From: Croceivirga sp.
GTDB taxonomy: Bacteria; Bacteroidota; Bacteroidia; Flavobacteriales; Flavobacteriaceae
NCBI GenBank assembly: GCA_028281025.1
Contig: JANQKR010000011.1
Coordinates: forward strand, 124,001-188,000
DNA length: 64,000 nucleotides
Direction of reading: 5' to 3'
The position numbers and the translations under genes are program-made. Positions 27,871-48,165 of the stretch are shown piece by piece. The notes under the pieces were generated by a model, which was not told where the DNA came from, made no database searches, and was given only the letters and a program-made list of their open reading frames with translations. Numbering within the stretch: the first letter of the stretch is position 1; every line of letters begins with the position of its first letter.

Positions 27871-28953
27871 TTAGGCATTGATAATCTTTTCTTGATGGTT
27901 GATGGATTCTTGGTGGATGGCCTTGAACATCCTAAGGACGAATTCCTCACTCAAGCCACGTTGTTCCCCTTCCAAGATCATATTGCCCAAAATGGAATTC
28001 CATCTGTTGGTCTGAAGAACAGCTACGTTACGCTTCTTTTTCAATTCACCGATACCATCGGAAACTTTCATCCTTTTGCCCAATAAATCAATCAGTTCAT
28101 TGTCCAAAACATCGATCTGGGCCCTAAGATTGGCCAATTGTGCATTGTATTCCGCTGCTTCATCAGTTTCTTTCCGCATTTTTAAATCTTTGAACATTTG
28201 TTTTAACGAGGTGGGTGTTACTTGTTGTGCGGCATCACTCCAAGCATTATCTGGATCAGTATGGGTTTCTATCATCAGTCCATCAAAATTTAAATCCAGT
28301 GCGGTCTGGGAAATGTCAAATACCAATTCACGTTTTCCAGTGATATGACTGGGATCATTTATCAATGGCAAATCAGGAAACTTGGTCTGCAATTCAATAG
28401 CCAATTGCCACTCGGGAATATTCCGATATTTTGTTTTTTGATACGTGGAAAATCCTCGATGGATAACCCCCAATTTTTTGATATTGGCCTTGGATAAACG
28501 TTCCACTGCCCCCAACCACAGGGACAAATCCGGGTTGACCGGGTTTTTGACCAAAACCACCTTGTCCGTACCTTTCAGGGCATCTGCAATCTCCTGAACA
28601 ATAAATGGGCTTACCGTGGAACGGGCACCTATCCATAACAAATCGATATCATGCTCCAAAGCCAAATCCACATGTGTCCTATTGGCAACCTCGGTGGCTG
28701 TTTTTAAACCTGTTTCTTCCTTTACTTTTTGCAGCCATTTAAGGCCTATGGCACCTACCCCTTCAAAATTCCCCGGTCTTGTCCGTGGTTTCCATATTCC
28801 CGCGCGATAGTAACTTACGTCAGAATCCTTAAGTTCATTTGCAATTTGCAATACTTGGTCTTCGGTTTCCGCACTACAAGGCCCGGCAATCACCAGTGGA
28901 TGAGGCAACTGTAAATCATCCAACCATGTTCTTAATTCCTTTGAATTTTCCAT
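27871..28953 (-). CDS. DAHP synthase fused to type II chorismate mutase
   Basis: 360 aa. Residues 1-265 are a KDSA/AroAII-type DAHP synthase (VIAGPCSAET, WKPRTRPGNFEG, LLWIGARST, NDPSHITGKR, IETHTDPDNAWSDA); about 275-355 are an AroQ chorismate mutase (LRAQIDVLDNELIDLLGKRM, AVLQTNRW). First step of the shikimate pathway plus the chorismate-to-prephenate step, in one chain; the mutase domain often gives feedback control. Last gene of the aromatic operon. Confidence 0.93.
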   Translation of the reverse strand: MENSKELRTWLDDLQLPHPLVIAGPCSAETEDQVLQIANELKDSDVSYYRAGIWKPRTRPGNFEGVGAIGLKWLQKVKEETGLKTATEVANRTHVDLALEHDIDLLWIGARSTVSPFIVQEIADALKGTDKVVLVKNPVNPDLSLWLGAVERLSKANIKKLGVIHRGFSTYQKTKYRNIPEWQLAIELQTKFPDLPLINDPSHITGKRELVFDISQTALDLNFDGLMIETHTDPDNAWSDAAQQVTPTSLKQMFKDLKMRKETDEAAEYNAQLANLRAQIDVLDNELIDLLGKRMKVSDGIGELKKKRNVAVLQTNRWNSILGNMILEGEQRGLSEEFVLRMFKAIHQESINHQEKIINA

Positions 28954-28954
28954 T

Positions 28955-29824
28955 TCATTTAGGTGTTTTAGTAAGTGGTATTCCTTTTAAAATTTGCTTT
29001 ATTCTATTGGTATTGTTCATTTGATCATGAATGCCCTTAAAATTGTCCTCTTCCATAAGCTGTTTAAAGGACTCTAAATTTTTTATGTATTCTTCCAGGC
29101 TCTTGATCACATTATCTTTGTTCTGTTCAAAAATTGGGGTCCACATGTCCGGTGAGCTTTTGGCCAGGCGGACCGTGCTTTCAAATCCACTTCCGGCCAT
29201 ATCAAAAATATCCCGTTCGTTCTGTTCTTCCTTTATCACGGTCTTTCCCAACATAAATGAACTAATGTGCGATAAATGCGACACATAGGCAATGTGCTTG
29301 TCGTGTGCTTCAGGGTTCATATAACGGATACGCATTCCCAATTTTTGGAAAAGTCCCAGCGCTTTTTCCTGTAGCTTAAACGCCGTTTTTTCCACTTCAC
29401 AAATAATGTTCGTCTTTCCGTCGTACAAGCCATCAAAAGCCGCGGATGGTCCAGAAAACTCCGTTCCCGCAATAGGATGACATGCCAAAAAATTCCTTCT
29501 CTTGGGATGGTTTTCCACACTTTGGCAAATGGCGGCCTTGGTAGAGCCCGCATCCAGCACCAAGCAATCGTCATTCACGTTGTTCAGGATTTTGGGAAGT
29601 TCAATGACCAACGCATCTACGGGAATGGCCAACAGTACCATATTGGCATCATTTAAGGTACGGTCCGTTCCCTTTTCATCAATCAATCCCAATTGCAGTG
29701 CTTCGGAAAGGTTGTTTTCATCCTTGTCAAATCCAATGATCCTGGATTCCGGAAACAAGCGTTTTAGCCCCTTTGCAAAAGAACCCCCGATCAAACCAAT
29801 GCCCACAATAACTATGTTGTCCAT
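28955..29824 (-). CDS. tyrA: prephenate dehydrogenase
   Basis: 289 aa. N-terminal Rossmann motif GIGLIGGSFAKGL, then ACHPIAGTEFSGP with the catalytic His and the prephenate-binding region. Oxidatively decarboxylates prephenate towards tyrosine. One nucleotide separates it from both neighbours. No ACT domain, so control probably lies at the operon leader and the DAHP synthase. Confidence 0.93.
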   Translation of the reverse strand: MDNIVIVGIGLIGGSFAKGLKRLFPESRIIGFDKDENNLSEALQLGLIDEKGTDRTLNDANMVLLAIPVDALVIELPKILNNVNDDCLVLDAGSTKAAICQSVENHPKRRNFLACHPIAGTEFSGPSAAFDGLYDGKTNIICEVEKTAFKLQEKALGLFQKLGMRIRYMNPEAHDKHIAYVSHLSHISSFMLGKTVIKEEQNERDIFDMAGSGFESTVRLAKSSPDMWTPIFEQNKDNVIKSLEEYIKNLESFKQLMEEDNFKGIHDQMNNTNRIKQILKGIPLTKTPK

Positions 29825-29825
29825 A

Positions 29826-30968
29826 CTAAAATCGTGCTATGGCATTTTTGATTTCTTCCTCTTTCACACATAGTGAAAAGCGAATATACCCTTCTCCATT
29901 ACTGCCGAATATGGTTCCGGGGGCAATGAAAATGTCCTTGTCATAAAGGACTTCATCTATAAAATCCTCAGATGGTTTTGCACCTTTGGGCAACTTGGCC
30001 CAAACAAACATTCCCGCGGCATCCGTATCATAGGTACATCCCAATTTGTCCACTAACTGGAACATCAGTTCCCTTCTGGCATTATAGGTTTCATTCAACT
30101 GTTGAAACCAACCCTTTCCGCTGTGCAATGCCGAAATTGCCCCTTTTTGGATTCCATAAAACATTCCGGAATCCATATTGCTTTTTACCTTTAGCACCGC
30201 CAGGATGTGTTCTGCACTTCCCATGACCATTCCCACTCGCCAACCAGCGAGATTAAATGTTTTACTCAGGGAATTCAATTCCAAAGCATGGTCTTTGGCT
30301 CCTGAAATTTGTAAGATACTGGTAGGGGCATCATTCAAAACAAAGCTGTAGGGATTATCATTTACCAATAAAATATTGTGTTTGCGGGCAAATGTTAACA
30401 ATGCTTCCATTTTGTCCATGGTAATCTTGGCTCCGGTCGGCATATTGGGATAGCTGATCCACATGAGCTTGACCTTGGACAGATCCATTTGTTCAATGGC
30501 CTCCAAATCCGGCAACCAACCATTTTCCTCCGTTAGATCATATTCCATTGGAATGGCCCCGATCAACCTTGTTACGGAAGTGTAGGTAGGATAACCGGGA
30601 TTGGGTACCAGAACCCCATCACCTACATTCAGGAAGGCAAGACTAATGTGCATAATACCTTCCTTGGAACCAATTAGGGGCAACAGTTCGTTCTGGGGAT
30701 TGATGGTAACCCCAAAGCGTTCTTTATAAAAATCCGCCATAGCCTCCCGTAATTCCGGTAATCCCTGATAGCTCTGGTACTGATGCGCACCCTCTTGGTG
30801 GAGCGTTGCACTCAACCCTTTTAATGCCTGGGGCGGTGGTGCCAGATCAGGGGAGCCAATTCCCATATTGATTATGGGTCTACCCTTCGCAACAAGTCCA
30901 CGTACCTCACGCAATTTTTTGGAGAAGTAATATTCCTGGATACTATCCAATCGTTTTGCCGTTATCAT
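29826..30968 (-). CDS. class I PLP aminotransferase, probably aromatic
   Basis: 380 aa fold-type I. PLP Lys in NSLSKTFNLAGWRVG; also GSPDLAPPPQA and PNPGYPTYTS, YPNMPTGA. Overlaps pheA by 4 nt (ATGA) and is followed by tyrA, so it most likely transaminates prephenate, phenylpyruvate or hydroxyphenylpyruvate. LL-diaminopimelate or alanine aminotransferases are related; substrate is inferred from context. Confidence 0.85.
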   Translation of the reverse strand: MITAKRLDSIQEYYFSKKLREVRGLVAKGRPIINMGIGSPDLAPPPQALKGLSATLHQEGAHQYQSYQGLPELREAMADFYKERFGVTINPQNELLPLIGSKEGIMHISLAFLNVGDGVLVPNPGYPTYTSVTRLIGAIPMEYDLTEENGWLPDLEAIEQMDLSKVKLMWISYPNMPTGAKITMDKMEALLTFARKHNILLVNDNPYSFVLNDAPTSILQISGAKDHALELNSLSKTFNLAGWRVGMVMGSAEHILAVLKVKSNMDSGMFYGIQKGAISALHSGKGWFQQLNETYNARRELMFQLVDKLGCTYDTDAAGMFVWAKLPKGAKPSEDFIDEVLYDKDIFIAPGTIFGSNGEGYIRFSLCVKEEEIKNAIARF

Positions 30969-31795
30969 CCTTTTAATGCATTTTTATATTCCCCCAATAC
31001 CCTGAAATCCTCCGACATAATCTCCAACAATGACTTTGCCTTGCTAAAATGGTCGTACTTCTCAAAAGTGACATCCACAAAAAAGGCATATTTCCAAGGC
31101 GTCTCTATTACTGGAAGTGACTGTATTTTGGTAAGGTTCATATTGCAATCACTCATAACGTTCAACACTGTTGCCAAACTCCCACGTTTATGATCGGTAA
31201 TAAAGCGAAGTGACGCCTTATTGATTTCTTCCTTTGGCAAAACCTTGTTCTGCTTTTTTAGTATAATGAAACGGGTAGCATTGTTTTTTATGGTCTGGAT
31301 TTCCGGGGCAATGATATCCAACCCATAAAGTTCCGCGGCCACCGTTGGGGCTATCGCCGCTACATGCTTTAATTGTTTCTCCTGTATTTGACGTGCTGTT
31401 TCGGCAGTGTCCACATCCTCCACCAATTTTAGTTGAGGGTATTGCTTTAAAAATTCCATACACTGCAACAGGGCCATGGGGTGGGTTCTCACCTCTTTAA
31501 TCTGTTCCATCGTCTGCCCTTTTAATACCATTAAGTTATGATGGATGCTCAGATAGTGTTCCCCAATAATGTGAATGTTATTGTGGTACACCAGATTGTA
31601 GTTGGGAATAATGGAACCGGCTATGGAATTTTCAATGGCCATTACCCCTTTGTCCGCTGTCCCGTCCAAAACACGGTCAATTAGTTTATCAAAGGACAAA
31701 CATTCCACCAATTCAATATCCTTACCAAGGAACTCAGTGGCTACTTGATGATGGTTACTCCCTTTAATACCTTGTATGGCTACCTTCAGTTTCAT
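30965..31795 (-). CDS. pheA: prephenate dehydratase
   Basis: 276 aa. Catalytic domain with AIENSIAGSIIPNYNLV and the TRF-type motif (NNATRFIIL), followed by an ACT domain (KRGSLATVLNVMSDCNMNLTKIQSLP, then YAFFVDV) that normally binds Phe. Converts prephenate to phenylpyruvate. First structural gene of the aromatic operon; its ATG is 2 nt after the T run of the attenuator terminator. Confidence 0.94.
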   Translation of the reverse strand: MKLKVAIQGIKGSNHHQVATEFLGKDIELVECLSFDKLIDRVLDGTADKGVMAIENSIAGSIIPNYNLVYHNNIHIIGEHYLSIHHNLMVLKGQTMEQIKEVRTHPMALLQCMEFLKQYPQLKLVEDVDTAETARQIQEKQLKHVAAIAPTVAAELYGLDIIAPEIQTIKNNATRFIILKKQNKVLPKEEINKASLRFITDHKRGSLATVLNVMSDCNMNLTKIQSLPVIETPWKYAFFVDVTFEKYDHFSKAKSLLEIMSEDFRVLGEYKNALKG

Positions 31796-31797
31796 TC

Positions 31798-31828
31798 AAA
31801 AAAAAAGCCCCGAACGAATTCCGGGACT
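31798..31828 (-). terminator. attenuator terminator of pheA operon
   Basis: Minus-strand stem of 9 pairs (AGTCCCGGA with TTCGGGGCT, two wobbles) and a 5-nt loop, followed by nine T, ending 2 nt before the pheA ATG. Confidence 0.9.
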
Positions 31829-31866
31829 TATATCTTCTATATTTAGCAATAACTAGAACAGTCCCG
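31798..31866 (-). promoter_or_regulatory. Phe/Tyr transcription attenuator: mutually exclusive antiterminator and terminator
   Basis: Within the minus-strand leader, CGGGACT (31866-31860, codons 20-22 of the leader peptide) is exactly complementary to AGTCCCG (31828-31822), the 5' arm of the terminator. Thus either CGGGACT:AGTCCCG (antiterminator, 7 bp) or the terminator stem can form. A ribosome stalled at the aromatic codons (5-16) leaves CGGGACT free; one that reaches the stop codon covers it. This is the layout of a classic ribosome-mediated attenuator. Seen: sequences and complementarity. Inferred: mechanism. Confidence 0.85.
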
Positions 31867-31924
31867 TACCCCCTCGATAAAAGAAGTAGAAATAAAAACC
31901 GTTCCAGAAATAAGTATTCTTCAT
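31853..31924 (-). CDS. aromatic leader peptide of the pheA operon
   Basis: A 23-codon reading frame starting at the ATG 31924-31922 and ending at TAG 31855-31853. Peptide: MKNTYFWNGFYFYFFYRGG followed by TGLF. Eleven of 23 residues are aromatic (six Phe, four Tyr, one Trp), and ten of the twelve codons 5-16 are aromatic. The stop is 24 nt before the terminator stem. The peptide carries no domain; its role is to sense charged Phe-tRNA and Tyr-tRNA. No Shine-Dalgarno site is seen, as usual for this phylum. Confidence 0.88.
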   Translation of the reverse strand: MKNTYFWNGFYFYFFYRGGTGLF

Positions 31925-32135
31925 GTAAACTTAAATTCTTGGCTAAGATTGGGTATTCCTTTCAAAATTCAAAAAGAATGATAGAATTTTTTTGATATTT
32001 TTTGATTTTGTTCAATTCTTTGGTTATTCTGAAACCATTTCACGAATAAATTTAGAATATGCGATTTTTTGTGAGGCGCAGAGAGCAATTGCTTTTAGAA
32101 ATTTAGTGGACGATCCAACCCTTATTAGAAATATC

Positions 32136-43364: not shown

Positions 43365-43754
43365 TTAGTTATTTGTTGATGGTTGTTTGTTGTTGGCATT
43401 TTGTTTTGATGCATAATAATTGATAAAACCATTCAACAATTTTTTACAGGTTTTTGTCTGATTACTTATTTCTTGAAATTGCTTATCGGTTAAATAGGAC
43501 TGATCTAAAGCTAAAAAGCATTGGGTCTCCAATTCATAAAGGGAACCTCTGGCTATATGAAGAAACTGAATAGTACCTGCCGAAGTTCTCCGACCACATC
43601 CTTCCGCAATATTTGAAGGAATGGATATACTACTTCGCCTAATTTGGTTGGTCAATCCGTAGATTTCTTCTTTTGGAAAAGAATCTGTTGTATCATAAAT
43701 TATCTTCACCAACTTTCTGGATTCAATCCACACATCTAAATCAGTATATTCCAT
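43365..43754 (-). CDS. four-helix bundle (S23/IVP) protein, copy 1
   Basis: 129 aa four-helix bundle of the 23S rRNA intervening-sequence protein family. Signature [25 protein letters not shown] and [15 protein letters not shown]. The last residues (NANNKQPSTNN) are encoded by a GTTG-type repeat rather than family sequence. It lies 3 nt after metF's start and 50 nt before metH's end on the operon strand. Function of the family is unknown; the related Avd protein assists diversity-generating retroelements, but no reverse transcriptase is here. Confidence 0.85.
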   Translation of the reverse strand: MEYTDLDVWIESRKLVKIIYDTTDSFPKEEIYGLTNQIRRSSISIPSNIAEGCGRRTSAGTIQFLHIARGSLYELETQCFLALDQSYLTDKQFQEISNQTKTCKKLLNGFINYYASKQNANNKQPSTNN

Positions 43755-43804: not shown

Positions 43805-46525
43805 TTAATCCACATCAACCAAATTTGGGGCTAGCCATTTCTTGGCTTCCTCCAGGCCCATGTTTTTTCGTTTGGCATAATCCTCAACTTGGTCCGGTTT
43901 AATTTTCCCAAGCCCAAAATATTTGGATTTATGGTGCCCAAAATAGTAGCCACTAACACTGGCTGCGGGCCACATGGCCAAACTCTCCGTCAATGTCACC
44001 CCTATTTTTTCCTCTACCCCCAGTAATTCCCAAATGGTCAGTTTTTCCAAGTGGTCCGGACAGGCTGGATAACCTGGGGCGGGACGGATTCCCTTGTATT
44101 TTTCATCAATCAAAGCCTCGTTATCCAACTTTTCCTTGGCTGCGTAACCCCAATATCTTGTCCTCACCTCTTTGTGCAAATATTCGGCAAAAGCTTCCGC
44201 CAATCGATCGGCAAGGGCTTTAATCATGATCGAGCCATAATCATCATGATTTTTTTCAAATGCCGTGGCCAATTCTTGTGTACCAAAGCCTGCCGTTACA
44301 CAAAAACAACCCATGTAATCTTGAATGCCAATCGCTTTTGGGGCTATAAAATCGGCTAAAGCCATATTGGGAACGCCATCTCGTTTTTTGAGCTGTTGGC
44401 GTAAGGTTCGAAATGTAAATTTTCCATGTCCCTTGGAAAGAACTTCAATATCATCCTCATCTATGGCATTGGCAGGGAATAGCCCAAAAATGGCCTTACC
44501 GTTCAACAGCCTTTCATCCAAGACTTTTTTTAGTAGTTTTTGGGCATCATGAAAAAGTTCATTGGCTTGTTCACCAACTACCTCATCTTCCAAAATAGCA
44601 GGGTATTTTCCATGCAGGTCCCAGGAGCGGAAAAAAGGGGTCCAATCGATAAATTCCTTGAGTTCGGATAAATCAAAATTATCCCAAACCTCTATTCCCA
44701 ATTGATTGGGCTTGTAAATGTCCTCCTCTTTAAATTCAATTTGCAATTTATTCGTCCGTGCTTCTTGCAAGCTTAGATATTCCTTTTGTTTGGTTCGATT
44801 TAAAAATTTTTCACGAAAGCTTTCGTAATCGAGTTTAATTGATTTCTTATAGGTTTCGGAAGTTTCTTTTTGAAGCAAGTCCCCAACCACGGTGACAGCT
44901 CTTGAAGCATCATGTACATGCACTACGGATTGGCTGTACATAGGATCTATTTTGACCGCCGTATGGGCCTTACTTGTAGTTGCGCCACCAATCAATAACG
45001 GAACGTCGAAATTTTGACGTTCCATTTCTTTGGCCAAGAAGACCATTTCATCAAGTGAAGGGGTTATCAATCCACTCAACCCAATAATATCGACTTTTTC
45101 TTCGATTGCCCTATTAATGATTTTTTCAGGAGGTACCATTACCCCCAAATCAACAATTTCATAGTTATTACAGGCCAAGACCACGGATACAATGTTTTTT
45201 CCGATATCGTGCACATCTCCTTTAACGGTAGCCATTAAAATACGCCCGGCCGCTTGGCCGACAGTTATGTCGGCATTGTTCTTTTTCTCCTCTTCAATAA
45301 AAGGCTCTAGATAGGCCACAGCTTTTTTCATGACCCTGGCCGATTTCACCACTTGCGGCAAAAACATTTTTCCGCTGCCGAATAAGTCACCCACGACGTT
45401 CATTCCGGTCATCAAATGCCCCTCAATAACTTCAAGTGGTCTCGAAGCGTGTTGGCGGGCTTCTTCAACATCTTCAATAATGTATTGGTCTATTCCTTTG
45501 ACCAAGGCCCGAGTGATGCGGTCTTGCAGTGGTTCTTGACGCCAAGAAAGGTCTACTTTACTCTCCTTGGTTTTTCCCTGGACGGTTTCAGCAAATTCCA
45601 ACAGTCTTTCCGTGGCATCTTCCCTCCGATTAAGAATTACATCTTCCACATACTCCAAAAGGTCCTTTGGGATATCATCATAAACCTCCAACAAGGCTGG
45701 ATTGACAATACCCATGTTCATTCCGGCTTTGATCGCGTGATATAAGAACACGGAATGCATCGCTTCCCGTACAGGATTGTTACCCCTAAAGGAAAAGGAA
45801 ACATTACTGACCCCTCCACTCACGCTGCAATAGGGAAGATTGTTACGCACCCATTGCGTGCCTTCAATGAAGTCCAGCGCATTCCGCTTATGCTCATCCA
45901 TTCCTGTTGCCACGGGAAAAATATTGAGGTCAAAAATGATGTCTTCAGGAGGAAAGCCCACCTCATCCACTAGAATTCCATAGGAGCGTTCGGCTATTTC
46001 AATCCGCCGTTCCAAATTATCTGCCTGGCCCACCTCATCAAACGCCATGATAATTACCGCCGCTCCGTACCGCTTGATTAATTTGGCCTGTCGGACGAAC
46101 TCTTCCTTACCTTCCTTTAAGCTAATGGAGTTTACCACACATTTTCCCTGGACCACTTGAAGCCCTGCTTCAATAATCTCCCATTTGGAACTATCTATCA
46201 TTATGGGAACGCGCGCGATATCGGGTTCAGCAACGATCAAATTCAAAAACCTGACCATAGCCTGTTTGCCATCAATAAGACCATCGTCCATATTAATATC
46301 GATGATTTGGGCCCCGCCCTCTACTTGATGTCTCGCAATTTCAAGTGCTTCCTCGTACTTATCCTCTTTGATCAAACGCAGGAATTTCCGTGAACCTGCC
46401 ACATTGGTACGCTCCCCCACATTTACAAAATTGCTTTCCGCAGTGATGACAAGAGGCTCCAAACCACTCAGACGTAGAAATCGTTGTTGGTTATTCGTAG
46501 TTGGTTGTTCGTTGAAAGTTTTCAT
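43805..46525 (-). CDS. metH: methionine synthase, pterin/cobalamin/activation domains
   Basis: 906 aa: methyl-THF-binding domain ([13 protein letters not shown] at the start), B12-binding Rossmann domain ([12 protein letters not shown] with the cobalt-ligating His, [13 protein letters not shown]), and C-terminal SAM activation domain ([12 protein letters not shown]). The homocysteine domain is in a separate gene at 46907-47908. The first ~15 residues ([16 protein letters not shown]) are repeat-encoded. Overlaps S23 copy 2 by 4 nt. Confidence 0.95.
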
Positions 46526-46904
46526 AACTTCTTATGATAATTAATGAAGCCGTTCAACAATTTTTTAACACGCTCAATTTCCCTCAAAATTTCTGAGATA
46601 TCAGAAGTAGTATATTCCAAATCGTTGGCCAGAATAATTTGGGTTTCGACCTCGAACAATGAACCCCTGGCTATATGTAAAAAGTGAATGGTTTCTTTTG
46701 AAGACTGCCTACCACAACCCTCTGCAATATTAGAAGAAACCGAAATCACACATCTTCTTAATTGAGAGGTCAAAGAAAATTGTTCTTCCTTCGGAAATAC
46801 CCTTGTCAACAAATAGACTTGTTTGACCAACTCTCTAGCCTTTAACCAAATATCCAATTCTTTATAGTCCATTCCCATAGTTTCATTAACGACAAACGAA
46901 CAAC
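46504..46904. repeat. 10-bp inverted repeats bracketing S23 copy 2
   Basis: GTTGTTCGTT at 46504-46513 and its exact reverse complement AACGAACAAC at 46895-46904 enclose the second S23 gene. The left arm is inside the first codons of metH. Confidence 0.75.
46522..46878 (-). CDS. four-helix bundle (S23/IVP) protein, copy 2
   Basis: 118 aa from the ATG at 46878 ([11 protein letters not shown]; 46872 is also possible). Clear paralogue of copy 1: shared [19 protein letters not shown] and [10 protein letters not shown]. Sits between the two halves of the split methionine synthase. The upstream in-frame ATG at 46914 is less likely because it lies in repeat sequence overlapping the previous stop. 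Function unknown. Confidence 0.85.
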
Positions 46905-46906
46905 GA

Positions 46907-47908
46907 TTAACCATTAACTAAAAGCTCTCGAGGAGCGTAATCCTTCACCAATTCTGAAATAGCCCTAATATGTTCGGGTGTAGTGCCGCAACATCCACCA
47001 ACAATATTGACAAGACCTTTCTCCAAATATTCTTTGATCTGGGACGCCATTTGTTCCGGGGTTTCATCATATTCGCCAAAAGCATTGGGAAGGCCCGCAT
47101 TGGGATGCGCACTAATGGCATGATCTGATTTTGCTGAGATAACCTCCAAATGTGGAGTCAACTGCTTTGCCCCCAAAGCACAATTGAACCCTACGGATAA
47201 AATTGGAATATGGGAAATGGAAATTAAAAAGGCTTCTGCGGTCTGTCCAGAAAGTGTCCTTCCAGAGGCATCGGTTATGGTCCCACTCACCATTATCGGT
47301 ACCTCAATATTACGTTCTTCCTTGACTTCTTCAATGGCAAACAAAGCGGCTTTGGCATTTAAAGTATCGAAAATGGTTTCCACCAATAGTATATCCGAGC
47401 CTCCATCCAATAGGGCTTCGGCCTGTAGTTTATAAGCTATTCGAAGTTCATCAAAACTTACGGCACGAAATCCGGGGTCGTTCACATCCGGCGAAAGACT
47501 GGCGGTTTTATTGGTGGGCCCCATGCTTCCTGCCACAAAGCGAGGCTTATGGGGCTCTTTCAAGGTGAATTCATCAGCCACATTCTTGGCAATCCGTGCA
47601 GATTCATAGTTGAGTTCATAAACCAGTTCTTCCATCCCATAATCGGCCATGGCAATGGTGGTGCCCGAGAAGGTATTGGTCTCTACGATATCCGCTCCTG
47701 CTTCAAAGTATTTTTTATGTACCTCTGCAATGGCATCCGGTTGGGTCAAGGACAGTAGATCATTGTTTCCTTGCAACGGATGTGGCCAATCCTTAAAGCG
47801 ATCGCCCCGGAAGTCTTCTTCCGTAAACTTATAACGCTGCAGCATCGTGCCCATGGCCCCATCCAAGATTAAAATTCGTTCCTTGAGTAAATCCTTAATT
47901 CTAGACAT
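46907..47908 (-). CDS. homocysteine S-methyltransferase domain of methionine synthase
   Basis: 333 aa, the N-terminal (homocysteine- and zinc-binding) module of MetH as a separate protein. DGAMGTMLQ at the start, VETNTFSGT, then the zinc Cys in NCALGAK and [10 protein letters not shown]. Together with the 906-aa protein it makes a complete B12-dependent enzyme. First gene after the SAM-I riboswitch. Confidence 0.93.
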
Positions 47909-47980: not shown

Positions 47981-48140
47981 TGTTATCCTTCCCATATCAG
48001 CCTGCCATTTCTTTAACAGGTCCCAAACAAGTTTGGGATGGGTAGAATGTAGCACCTTCTCAGGTCCTGATGGGCACCAGGATAAACCGAGGGTTGCTAA
48101 GGCATCATAGGGTCTATTCCCTCCACCTTTCTTGATAACT
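47981..48140 (-). promoter_or_regulatory. SAM-I (S-box) riboswitch
   Basis: On the minus strand the conserved core runs in order: P1 5' GTTATC (48139-48134), AAGAAAGGTGGAGGGA, CCCTATGATGCC, TTAGCAACCC, then GAAGGTGCTACATTC, and P1 3' GATAAC (47987-47982), perfectly complementary to the 5' strand. These are the kink-turn, P2 and J3/4 elements of SAM-I. It binds SAM and turns off the downstream met genes. Confidence 0.94.
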
Positions 48141-48165
48141 TTCAATTTTTAAATGAACTCTTGCG

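Follow-up and report, generated by a model that had tools for sequence, protein, structure and literature searches.

Does the short interval in front of pheA in Croceivirga sp. hold a ribosome-mediated attenuator that governs the synthesis of aromatic amino acids? The question arose from a reading of the sequence, referred to here as the original prediction, of one stretch of 64,000 nucleotides (the window). That prediction took the genes behind the interval to be an operon that makes both Phe and Tyr, and Pfam matches support this for each of the four genes:

30965-31795, minus strand: pheA, prephenate dehydratase (PF00800, E 1.6e-58; ACT-domain match below the cutoff)
29826-30968, minus strand: aminotransferase class I/II (PF00155)
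28955-29824, minus strand: tyrA, prephenate dehydrogenase (PF02153 and PF20463)
27871-28953, minus strand: DAHP synthase fused to chorismate mutase (PF00793 and PF01817)

Between these genes and the start of the upstream leader, the following elements can be placed, with the evidence for each in parentheses:

31853-31924, minus strand: leader peptide ORF, 23 codons plus TAG (sequence; conserved in relatives)
31860-31866, minus strand: arm 2, CGGGACT, antiterminator 5' strand in leader codons 20 to 22 (2:3 pairing across 118 rows)
31822-31828, minus strand: arm 3, AGTCCCG, common to antiterminator and terminator (covariation and arm matching)
31805-31812, minus strand: arm 4, CGGGGCTT, terminator 3' strand (covariation of the 3:4 helix; RNAalifold)
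31798-31806, minus strand: nine-T run of the intrinsic terminator (sequence; terminator scan)

The leader, read from 31924 to 31853 on the minus strand, translates as MKNTYFWNGFYFYFFYRGGTGLF followed by the stop. Phe, Tyr, or Trp occupies 10 of the 12 positions of codons 5 to 16, in aromatic runs at codons 5 to 7 and 10 to 16. The gap from the leader stop to the terminator hairpin, which a terminator scan places at 31829-31805, is 23 nt, and the nine T residues (31806-31798) are followed by GA and then by the pheA ATG at 31795. The 23-codon leader with 10 aromatic residues among codons 5 to 16 had been predicted and is correct to the base, as are both coordinates of the 7-bp antiterminator (CGGGACT at 31866-31860 with AGTCCCG at 31828-31822) and the terminator whose nine T residues stop 2 nt short of pheA. 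The interval contains a short leader ORF that carries codons for the operon's products, an intrinsic terminator between the leader and the first gene, and an antiterminator arm downstream of the control codons that is mutually exclusive with the terminator and supported by covariation. Judged from these sequence features, the element is, with high confidence, a ribosome-mediated transcription attenuator of the classical kind that controls the pheA-aminotransferase-tyrA-DAHP synthase operon.

In order to compare this interval with those of relatives, regions upstream of pheA were taken from 80 named contigs, from 30 loci of a family search, and from 80 further chosen stretches; 29 new Flavobacteriaceae loci (out of 30 candidates, most of them distant family members with weaker pheA scores) and 57 loci from a class-level search were added. 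The family search found pheA matches in 360 of 397 genomes, and loci were chosen among the matches listed. Among the named contigs, the best pheA matches are from Flagellimonas, Allomuricauda, and Croceivirga (Flavobacteriaceae). The class search covered 247 genomes, 64 of which have a pheA match at E ≤ 0.001. The 57 stretches used comprise 55 from outside Flavobacteriaceae and 2 from inside; five other matches are the genome studied here and four family members already in the sample, and G522 and G634 were left out because their pheA matches are partial or weak. The 183 class genomes with no pheA match are uninformative on the presence of the attenuator. The nearer loci (L001 to L138) are referred to as group A. 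Throughout, locus counts are not counts of independent genomes, since named and other records partly overlap (L033 and L088, for example, share one leader region).

Aromatic leaders are far more frequent in front of pheA than in shuffled sequence. The 300 nt preceding pheA are complete in 273 loci, and 244 of these contain an ATG-started ORF of 10 to 45 codons with at least seven F, Y, or W residues within 10 codons; among dinucleotide shuffles, the number is 3 of 1,365. By script, every group A locus but one (137 of 138) has both leader and terminator; in the exception (L047), the contig end cuts off the leader start and the remainder is present. The same combination was found in 81 of 83 other Flavobacteriaceae loci (missing in L195, with 373 nt upstream, and in L206). 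Elsewhere in the class Bacteroidia, 31 of 55 loci have it, and these represent 13 of 23 families, 9 of which have one or more loci that pass the arm test. Among the 55 class loci, 22 have no ORF with six aromatic codons per 10. Eight of these are all of the loci of family f13, in which the leader is absent in 8 of 8, while L223, L235, and L241 have a shorter aromatic ORF (5 of 10 codons) and L243 is interrupted by a contig end. Two other loci of the class sample (L234 and L265) have a leader and no terminator detected by the script. The median number of codons that separate the last core aromatic codon from the stop is 9; the stop and the terminator are a median of 24 to 25 nt apart in the family and 32 nt in the class sample. 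These spacings are compatible with the ribosome footprint as generally described.

The mix of Phe and Tyr codons noted in the original prediction is present, but Trp had been overlooked. Codon 7 of the leader in the window is Trp, and a Trp codon occurs in 169 of 251 leaders (100 of 137 in group A, 61 of 81 in the rest of the family, and 8 of 33 in the class sample). Since Trp is found in only part of the leaders, sensing of Trp is possible, not general.

Covariation was examined in an alignment (A1) of 118 distinct rows, in which exact duplicates were merged and from which we left out L047 (truncated at the leader start by the end of its contig), L134 and L140 (unusual leader length or position of the T run), and L139 (motif missed). 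Pairing of arm 2 with arm 3 holds in 97.0% of cells, 4 of the 7 pairs have changed on both sides, and all six core pairs are intact in 112 of the 118 rows; when the partner is slid by 1 to 3 columns as a control, pairing is at most 57.4%. The 3:4 terminator helix is paired in 99.9% of cells, and 6 of its 8 pairs have both-side changes. Taken together with the outer 1:2 helix considered below, it has 11 pairs changed on both sides, versus 4.9 in shuffles, and none of 500 shuffles reaches that number, with the qualification that such counts ignore the tree and are inflated by sequence relatedness. In L078, L131, and L135 all three arms are altered together, and in L024 the terminator is kept and part of the 2:3 match is lost. 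The terminator arm differs by lineage (AGTCCCG, GTCTCG, CCCGGC, AACCCGG, AAAGCCTCG, and TCCTGCC are among its forms), and within most loci the leader end carries the matching sequence. In 173 of 249 loci, the final 30 nt of the leader contain a Watson-Crick match of at least 6 nt to the 5' arm of the terminator, compared with 136 of 4,980 letter-shuffled leader ends. In a duplex energy test with 100 shuffles per locus, p ≤ 0.05 was reached by 120 of 137 group A loci, 68 of 81 other family loci, and 19 of 31 class loci, and was missed by 17, 13, and 12 loci, respectively.

The terminator taken by itself is not distinctive. A single terminator-like site is ordinary for a region of this kind, since shuffles average 0.8, so the significance of the locus rests on the aromatic leaders and the arm matches and not on the hairpin alone. 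The terminator is also the sole consensus structure that RNAalifold predicts unaided. Both observations would suit a constitutive promoter-proximal terminator accompanied by an incidental aromatic ORF, with no response to amino acids. That explanation is very unlikely, given that leader arm 2 tracks the terminator arm across lineages and that the aromatic codons persist while other leader residues vary. The original prediction had proposed a search for conserved leader frames, complementary arms, and compensatory changes in related pheA operons, and all three are found: frame and arms are kept across most of the relatives and the arms change together, which supports the reading as an attenuator.

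Within the leader, synonymous codons are fixed at some positions and free at others. In A1, codon 14 (Phe) is TTC in 118 of 118 rows, codon 15 is TTT in 113, and codon 16 is TTT in 103. Codons 10 and 12 show mixed synonymous usage, unlike the position-fixed codons 14 and 15.

The conservation of the leader raises the question of whether its product could be a functional small protein, with RNA structure being secondary. Several nonaromatic residues are nearly fixed in group A (N8 in 110, G21 in 114, and L22 in 113 of 118), as would be expected of such a protein, but all three fall within the proposed RNA arms. Furthermore, synonymous sites are constrained by position at codons 14 and 15, the peptide outside group A varies while its aromatic content is kept, and the leader in the window has no Pfam or NCBIfam match. 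We regard a protein function as extremely unlikely. The constraint on synonymous sites at codons 14 to 16 is strong, and a possible second hairpin inside the leader, whose inner helix covaries weakly, may explain it only partly. The strands that would form this hairpin are as follows:

31898-31907, minus strand: arm 1, possible outer protector strand, CTGGAACGGT, in codons 6 to 9, pairing with 31862-31853 (fold and covariation)
31880-31888, minus strand: possible inner protector strand, in codons 13 to 15, pairing with 31875-31867 (92.5% of cells paired)

In the window, codons 6 to 9 can pair with the last codons and the stop (ACTGTTCTAG), and codons 13 to 15 can pair with codons 17 to 20. The outer protector helix is paired in 88.0% of cells across the 118 rows, with 5 of 10 pairs changed on both sides. 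The inner helix, more fully paired, gives two covariation measures that are no better than shuffles (154 and 190 of 500), and RNAalifold unaided does not predict a protector helix. In the absence of a ribosome, the full-length leader RNA is predicted to fold with 1:2 and 3:4 together, and this, along with the position-specific synonymous constraint in the leader, favors a protector. In contrast, the best fold of a transcript that ends at arm 3, also without a ribosome, is the 2:3 antiterminator and not 1:2 (-22.0), which counts against a strong protector at that stage. We conclude that a protector (1:2) hairpin within the leader is plausible. The original prediction of a complete attenuator with three arms was right about the leader, the antiterminator, and the terminator arms, and had overlooked this possible additional arm inside the leader.

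Predicted folding energies are consistent with a switch between arms 2:3 and 3:4. When nt 1 to 57 of the window transcript are covered and the transcript extends to arm 3, the antiterminator forms at -14.5 kcal/mol; for all 118 rows, the best fold of the transcript spanning arms 2 and 3 includes it, counted as 4 or more of the 6 core pairs. The terminator alone has -13.4 kcal/mol and is the only structure left with a ribosome at the stop codon. With nt 1 to 57 masked and arm 4 present, the terminator is preferred over the antiterminator (-16.5 versus -14.5 kcal/mol), and therefore a switch would have to be kinetic, with the choice made before arm 4 is complete. A conserved extra hairpin in the antiterminator loop was considered and dropped, since it is weak (mean z -0.75, with 33 of 102 distinct loops below -1).

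Based on these parts and their conservation, we infer that the leader is translated, that ribosomes stall in it, and that the RNA switches between readthrough and termination in response to amino acids. When charged tRNA-Phe or tRNA-Tyr is scarce, a ribosome would stall in codons 10 to 16 (or 5 to 7) and leave arm 2 free; arm 2 would then pair with the newly emerging arm 3, letting RNA polymerase read through into pheA. When the tRNAs are charged, a ribosome that reaches the stop codon would cover arm 2, so that arms 3 and 4 would form the terminator and transcription would end in the T run. If no ribosome translates the leader, the predicted fold of the complete leader RNA pairs arms 1 and 2 and includes the terminator. 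The attenuator is very probably real and working, and the operon is most likely switched on upon a shortage of aromatic amino acids, by sensing of charged tRNA-Phe and tRNA-Tyr and possibly of charged tRNA-Trp as well.

A probable promoter element lies upstream of the leader:

31943-31950, minus strand: probable -7 promoter element, AATCTTAG (TAHHTTAG in relatives; box in group A relatives)

A -7-like box is present in 106 of 123 distinct group A upstream regions; in 94 of these it begins 24 to 27 nt upstream of the leader ATG, at exactly 26 nt in 65. By a strict definition, the box occurs in 112 of 137 loci, versus 193 of 2,740 shuffles. In the window copy, AATCTTAG, the first T is replaced by A. 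The Bacteroidota -7 consensus is given as TAHHTTTG, with 4 to 5 nt to the start site (PMC6847099). From the position of the box, transcription would start about 13 to 14 nt upstream of the leader ATG. This promoter box, present in most of the nearer relatives, had been overlooked in the earlier reading, whose leader, arms, and terminator stand. At the start of the leader itself, A at -3 is present in 69% of group A leaders, and the window has T there; A at this position is reported to be favorable in F. johnsoniae.

At the other end of the element, the proximity of the terminator to pheA suggests another mode of control, in which the 3:4 hairpin would act on translation by blocking initiation near the pheA ATG. 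The T run in the window stops 2 nt before this ATG, and among the 137 group A loci there are 53 whose terminator stem ends 14 nt or less before the pheA start, which speaks for such a mechanism. In other loci, however, the gap is larger, up to 239 nt (L185), and the T run is still kept, which makes termination the better fit. Translational attenuation in place of termination is thus very unlikely. A block of pheA initiation by the hairpin could nonetheless be additional to termination by the attenuator.

The same genome contains other candidate leaders of this general kind, but no second pheA-like copy was found by its codon pattern, since the control-codon pattern TTYTAYTTYTAYTTYTTYTWY occurs a single time in the 5.1-Mb genome. 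The leader ORF upstream of trpE (L279 1328-1384, contig 35), MKGKQQLNWWWNNLRILS, carries three Trp codons, and the one upstream of hisG (L277 1108-1161, contig 22), MRNKFTHHHIDSIAQAR, carries three His codons; in both cases the predicted fold also shows a terminator-like hairpin. From these features, they are likely a trp attenuator and a his attenuator, respectively. No leader was found within 250 nt of ilvD in this genome. We rejected the idea that pheA is preceded by a known riboswitch or T-box, since Rfam at the gathering threshold gave only a SAM riboswitch elsewhere in the window. This riboswitch (RF00162, 52.5 bits, 48010-48141, minus strand) lies about 100 nt before a gene at 46907-47908. 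The product of that gene resembles the homocysteine methyltransferase part of a split MetH, with the rest at 43805-46525. Two similar small ORFs are found on the minus strand, one between the metH pieces (46522-46914) and one after them (43365-43754); we take them to resemble four-helix-bundle (S23-type) proteins.

Compared with 4,227 Rfam families over 31750-32010, the region is closest to RF01859 (Phe_leader), which aligns over its full length (model positions 1 to 125) on the same strand. The score of 23.5 bits (E 0.067) is below the gathering threshold of 55, and the region is therefore not a member by homology; no Rfam family matches the pheA leader region at gathering threshold. The E. 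coli pheA leader has a peptide rich in control codons, competing helices, and a terminator before pheA, and its control codons are for Phe only. The window element resembles it in having a control-codon leader, competing helices, and a terminator before pheA, but differs in mixing Phe and Tyr codons (and, in relatives, often Trp codons) and in preceding an operon that makes Phe and Tyr. The trp, his, and thr attenuators (RF00513, RF00514, and RF00506) belong to the same class of mechanism and give weak subthreshold matches to the region, but they serve other amino acids and operons and score far below gathering.

In Flavobacterium psychrophilum, structured 5' elements before pheA and hisG were described in 2021 (PMC9723704). 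The authors note indications of leader-peptide attenuation at amino acid operons, and they report that the pheA element lacks an Rfam hit and is conserved in other genera of Flavobacteriaceae. That element precedes the same gene in the same family as the window element; the accessible main text does not give the peptide, the arms, the covariation, or the range outside the family, and the supplement may overlap with our results (PMC9723704). The original prediction knew of little work on such attenuators in this phylum. This holds insofar as no experiment on the pheA attenuator was found among the literature matches listed, but the 2021 hint in F. psychrophilum had been overlooked (PMC9723704). 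A comparative study of attenuation (Lopatovskaya 2010, PubMed 20198868), cited in PMC4833913, may contain this case. Elements of this kind are thus familiar, and a hint of this one had been published; the present analysis contributes its anatomy, the covariation of three arms, the promoter box, and its occurrence in further families of the class.

The element is unannotated by Rfam at threshold, as is its leader by Pfam and NCBIfam. Ribosome-mediated attenuation requires a ribosome close behind RNA polymerase. Bacteroidota ribosomes, as two reports describe, operate without Shine-Dalgarno pairing (PMC6847099 and PMC9976891), and among the literature matches listed no study by title concerns transcription-translation coupling in Bacteroidota. 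The attenuator makes such coupling testable in a phylum without Shine-Dalgarno initiation. Being conserved and having clear arms, it is a natural reporter for coupling, for the sensing of tRNA charging, and for non-Shine-Dalgarno initiation on a very short leader. Taking all of this together, we put forward one joint reading tentatively, as one that could well prove wrong. An aromatic (Phe/Tyr, often Trp) pheA attenuator may date back to the ancestor of a large part of the class, with later loss in some families, and its persistence would indicate that the leading ribosome is closely coupled to RNA polymerase without Shine-Dalgarno pairing; in the lineage of the window, the hairpin that adjoins the pheA start may also gate translation.
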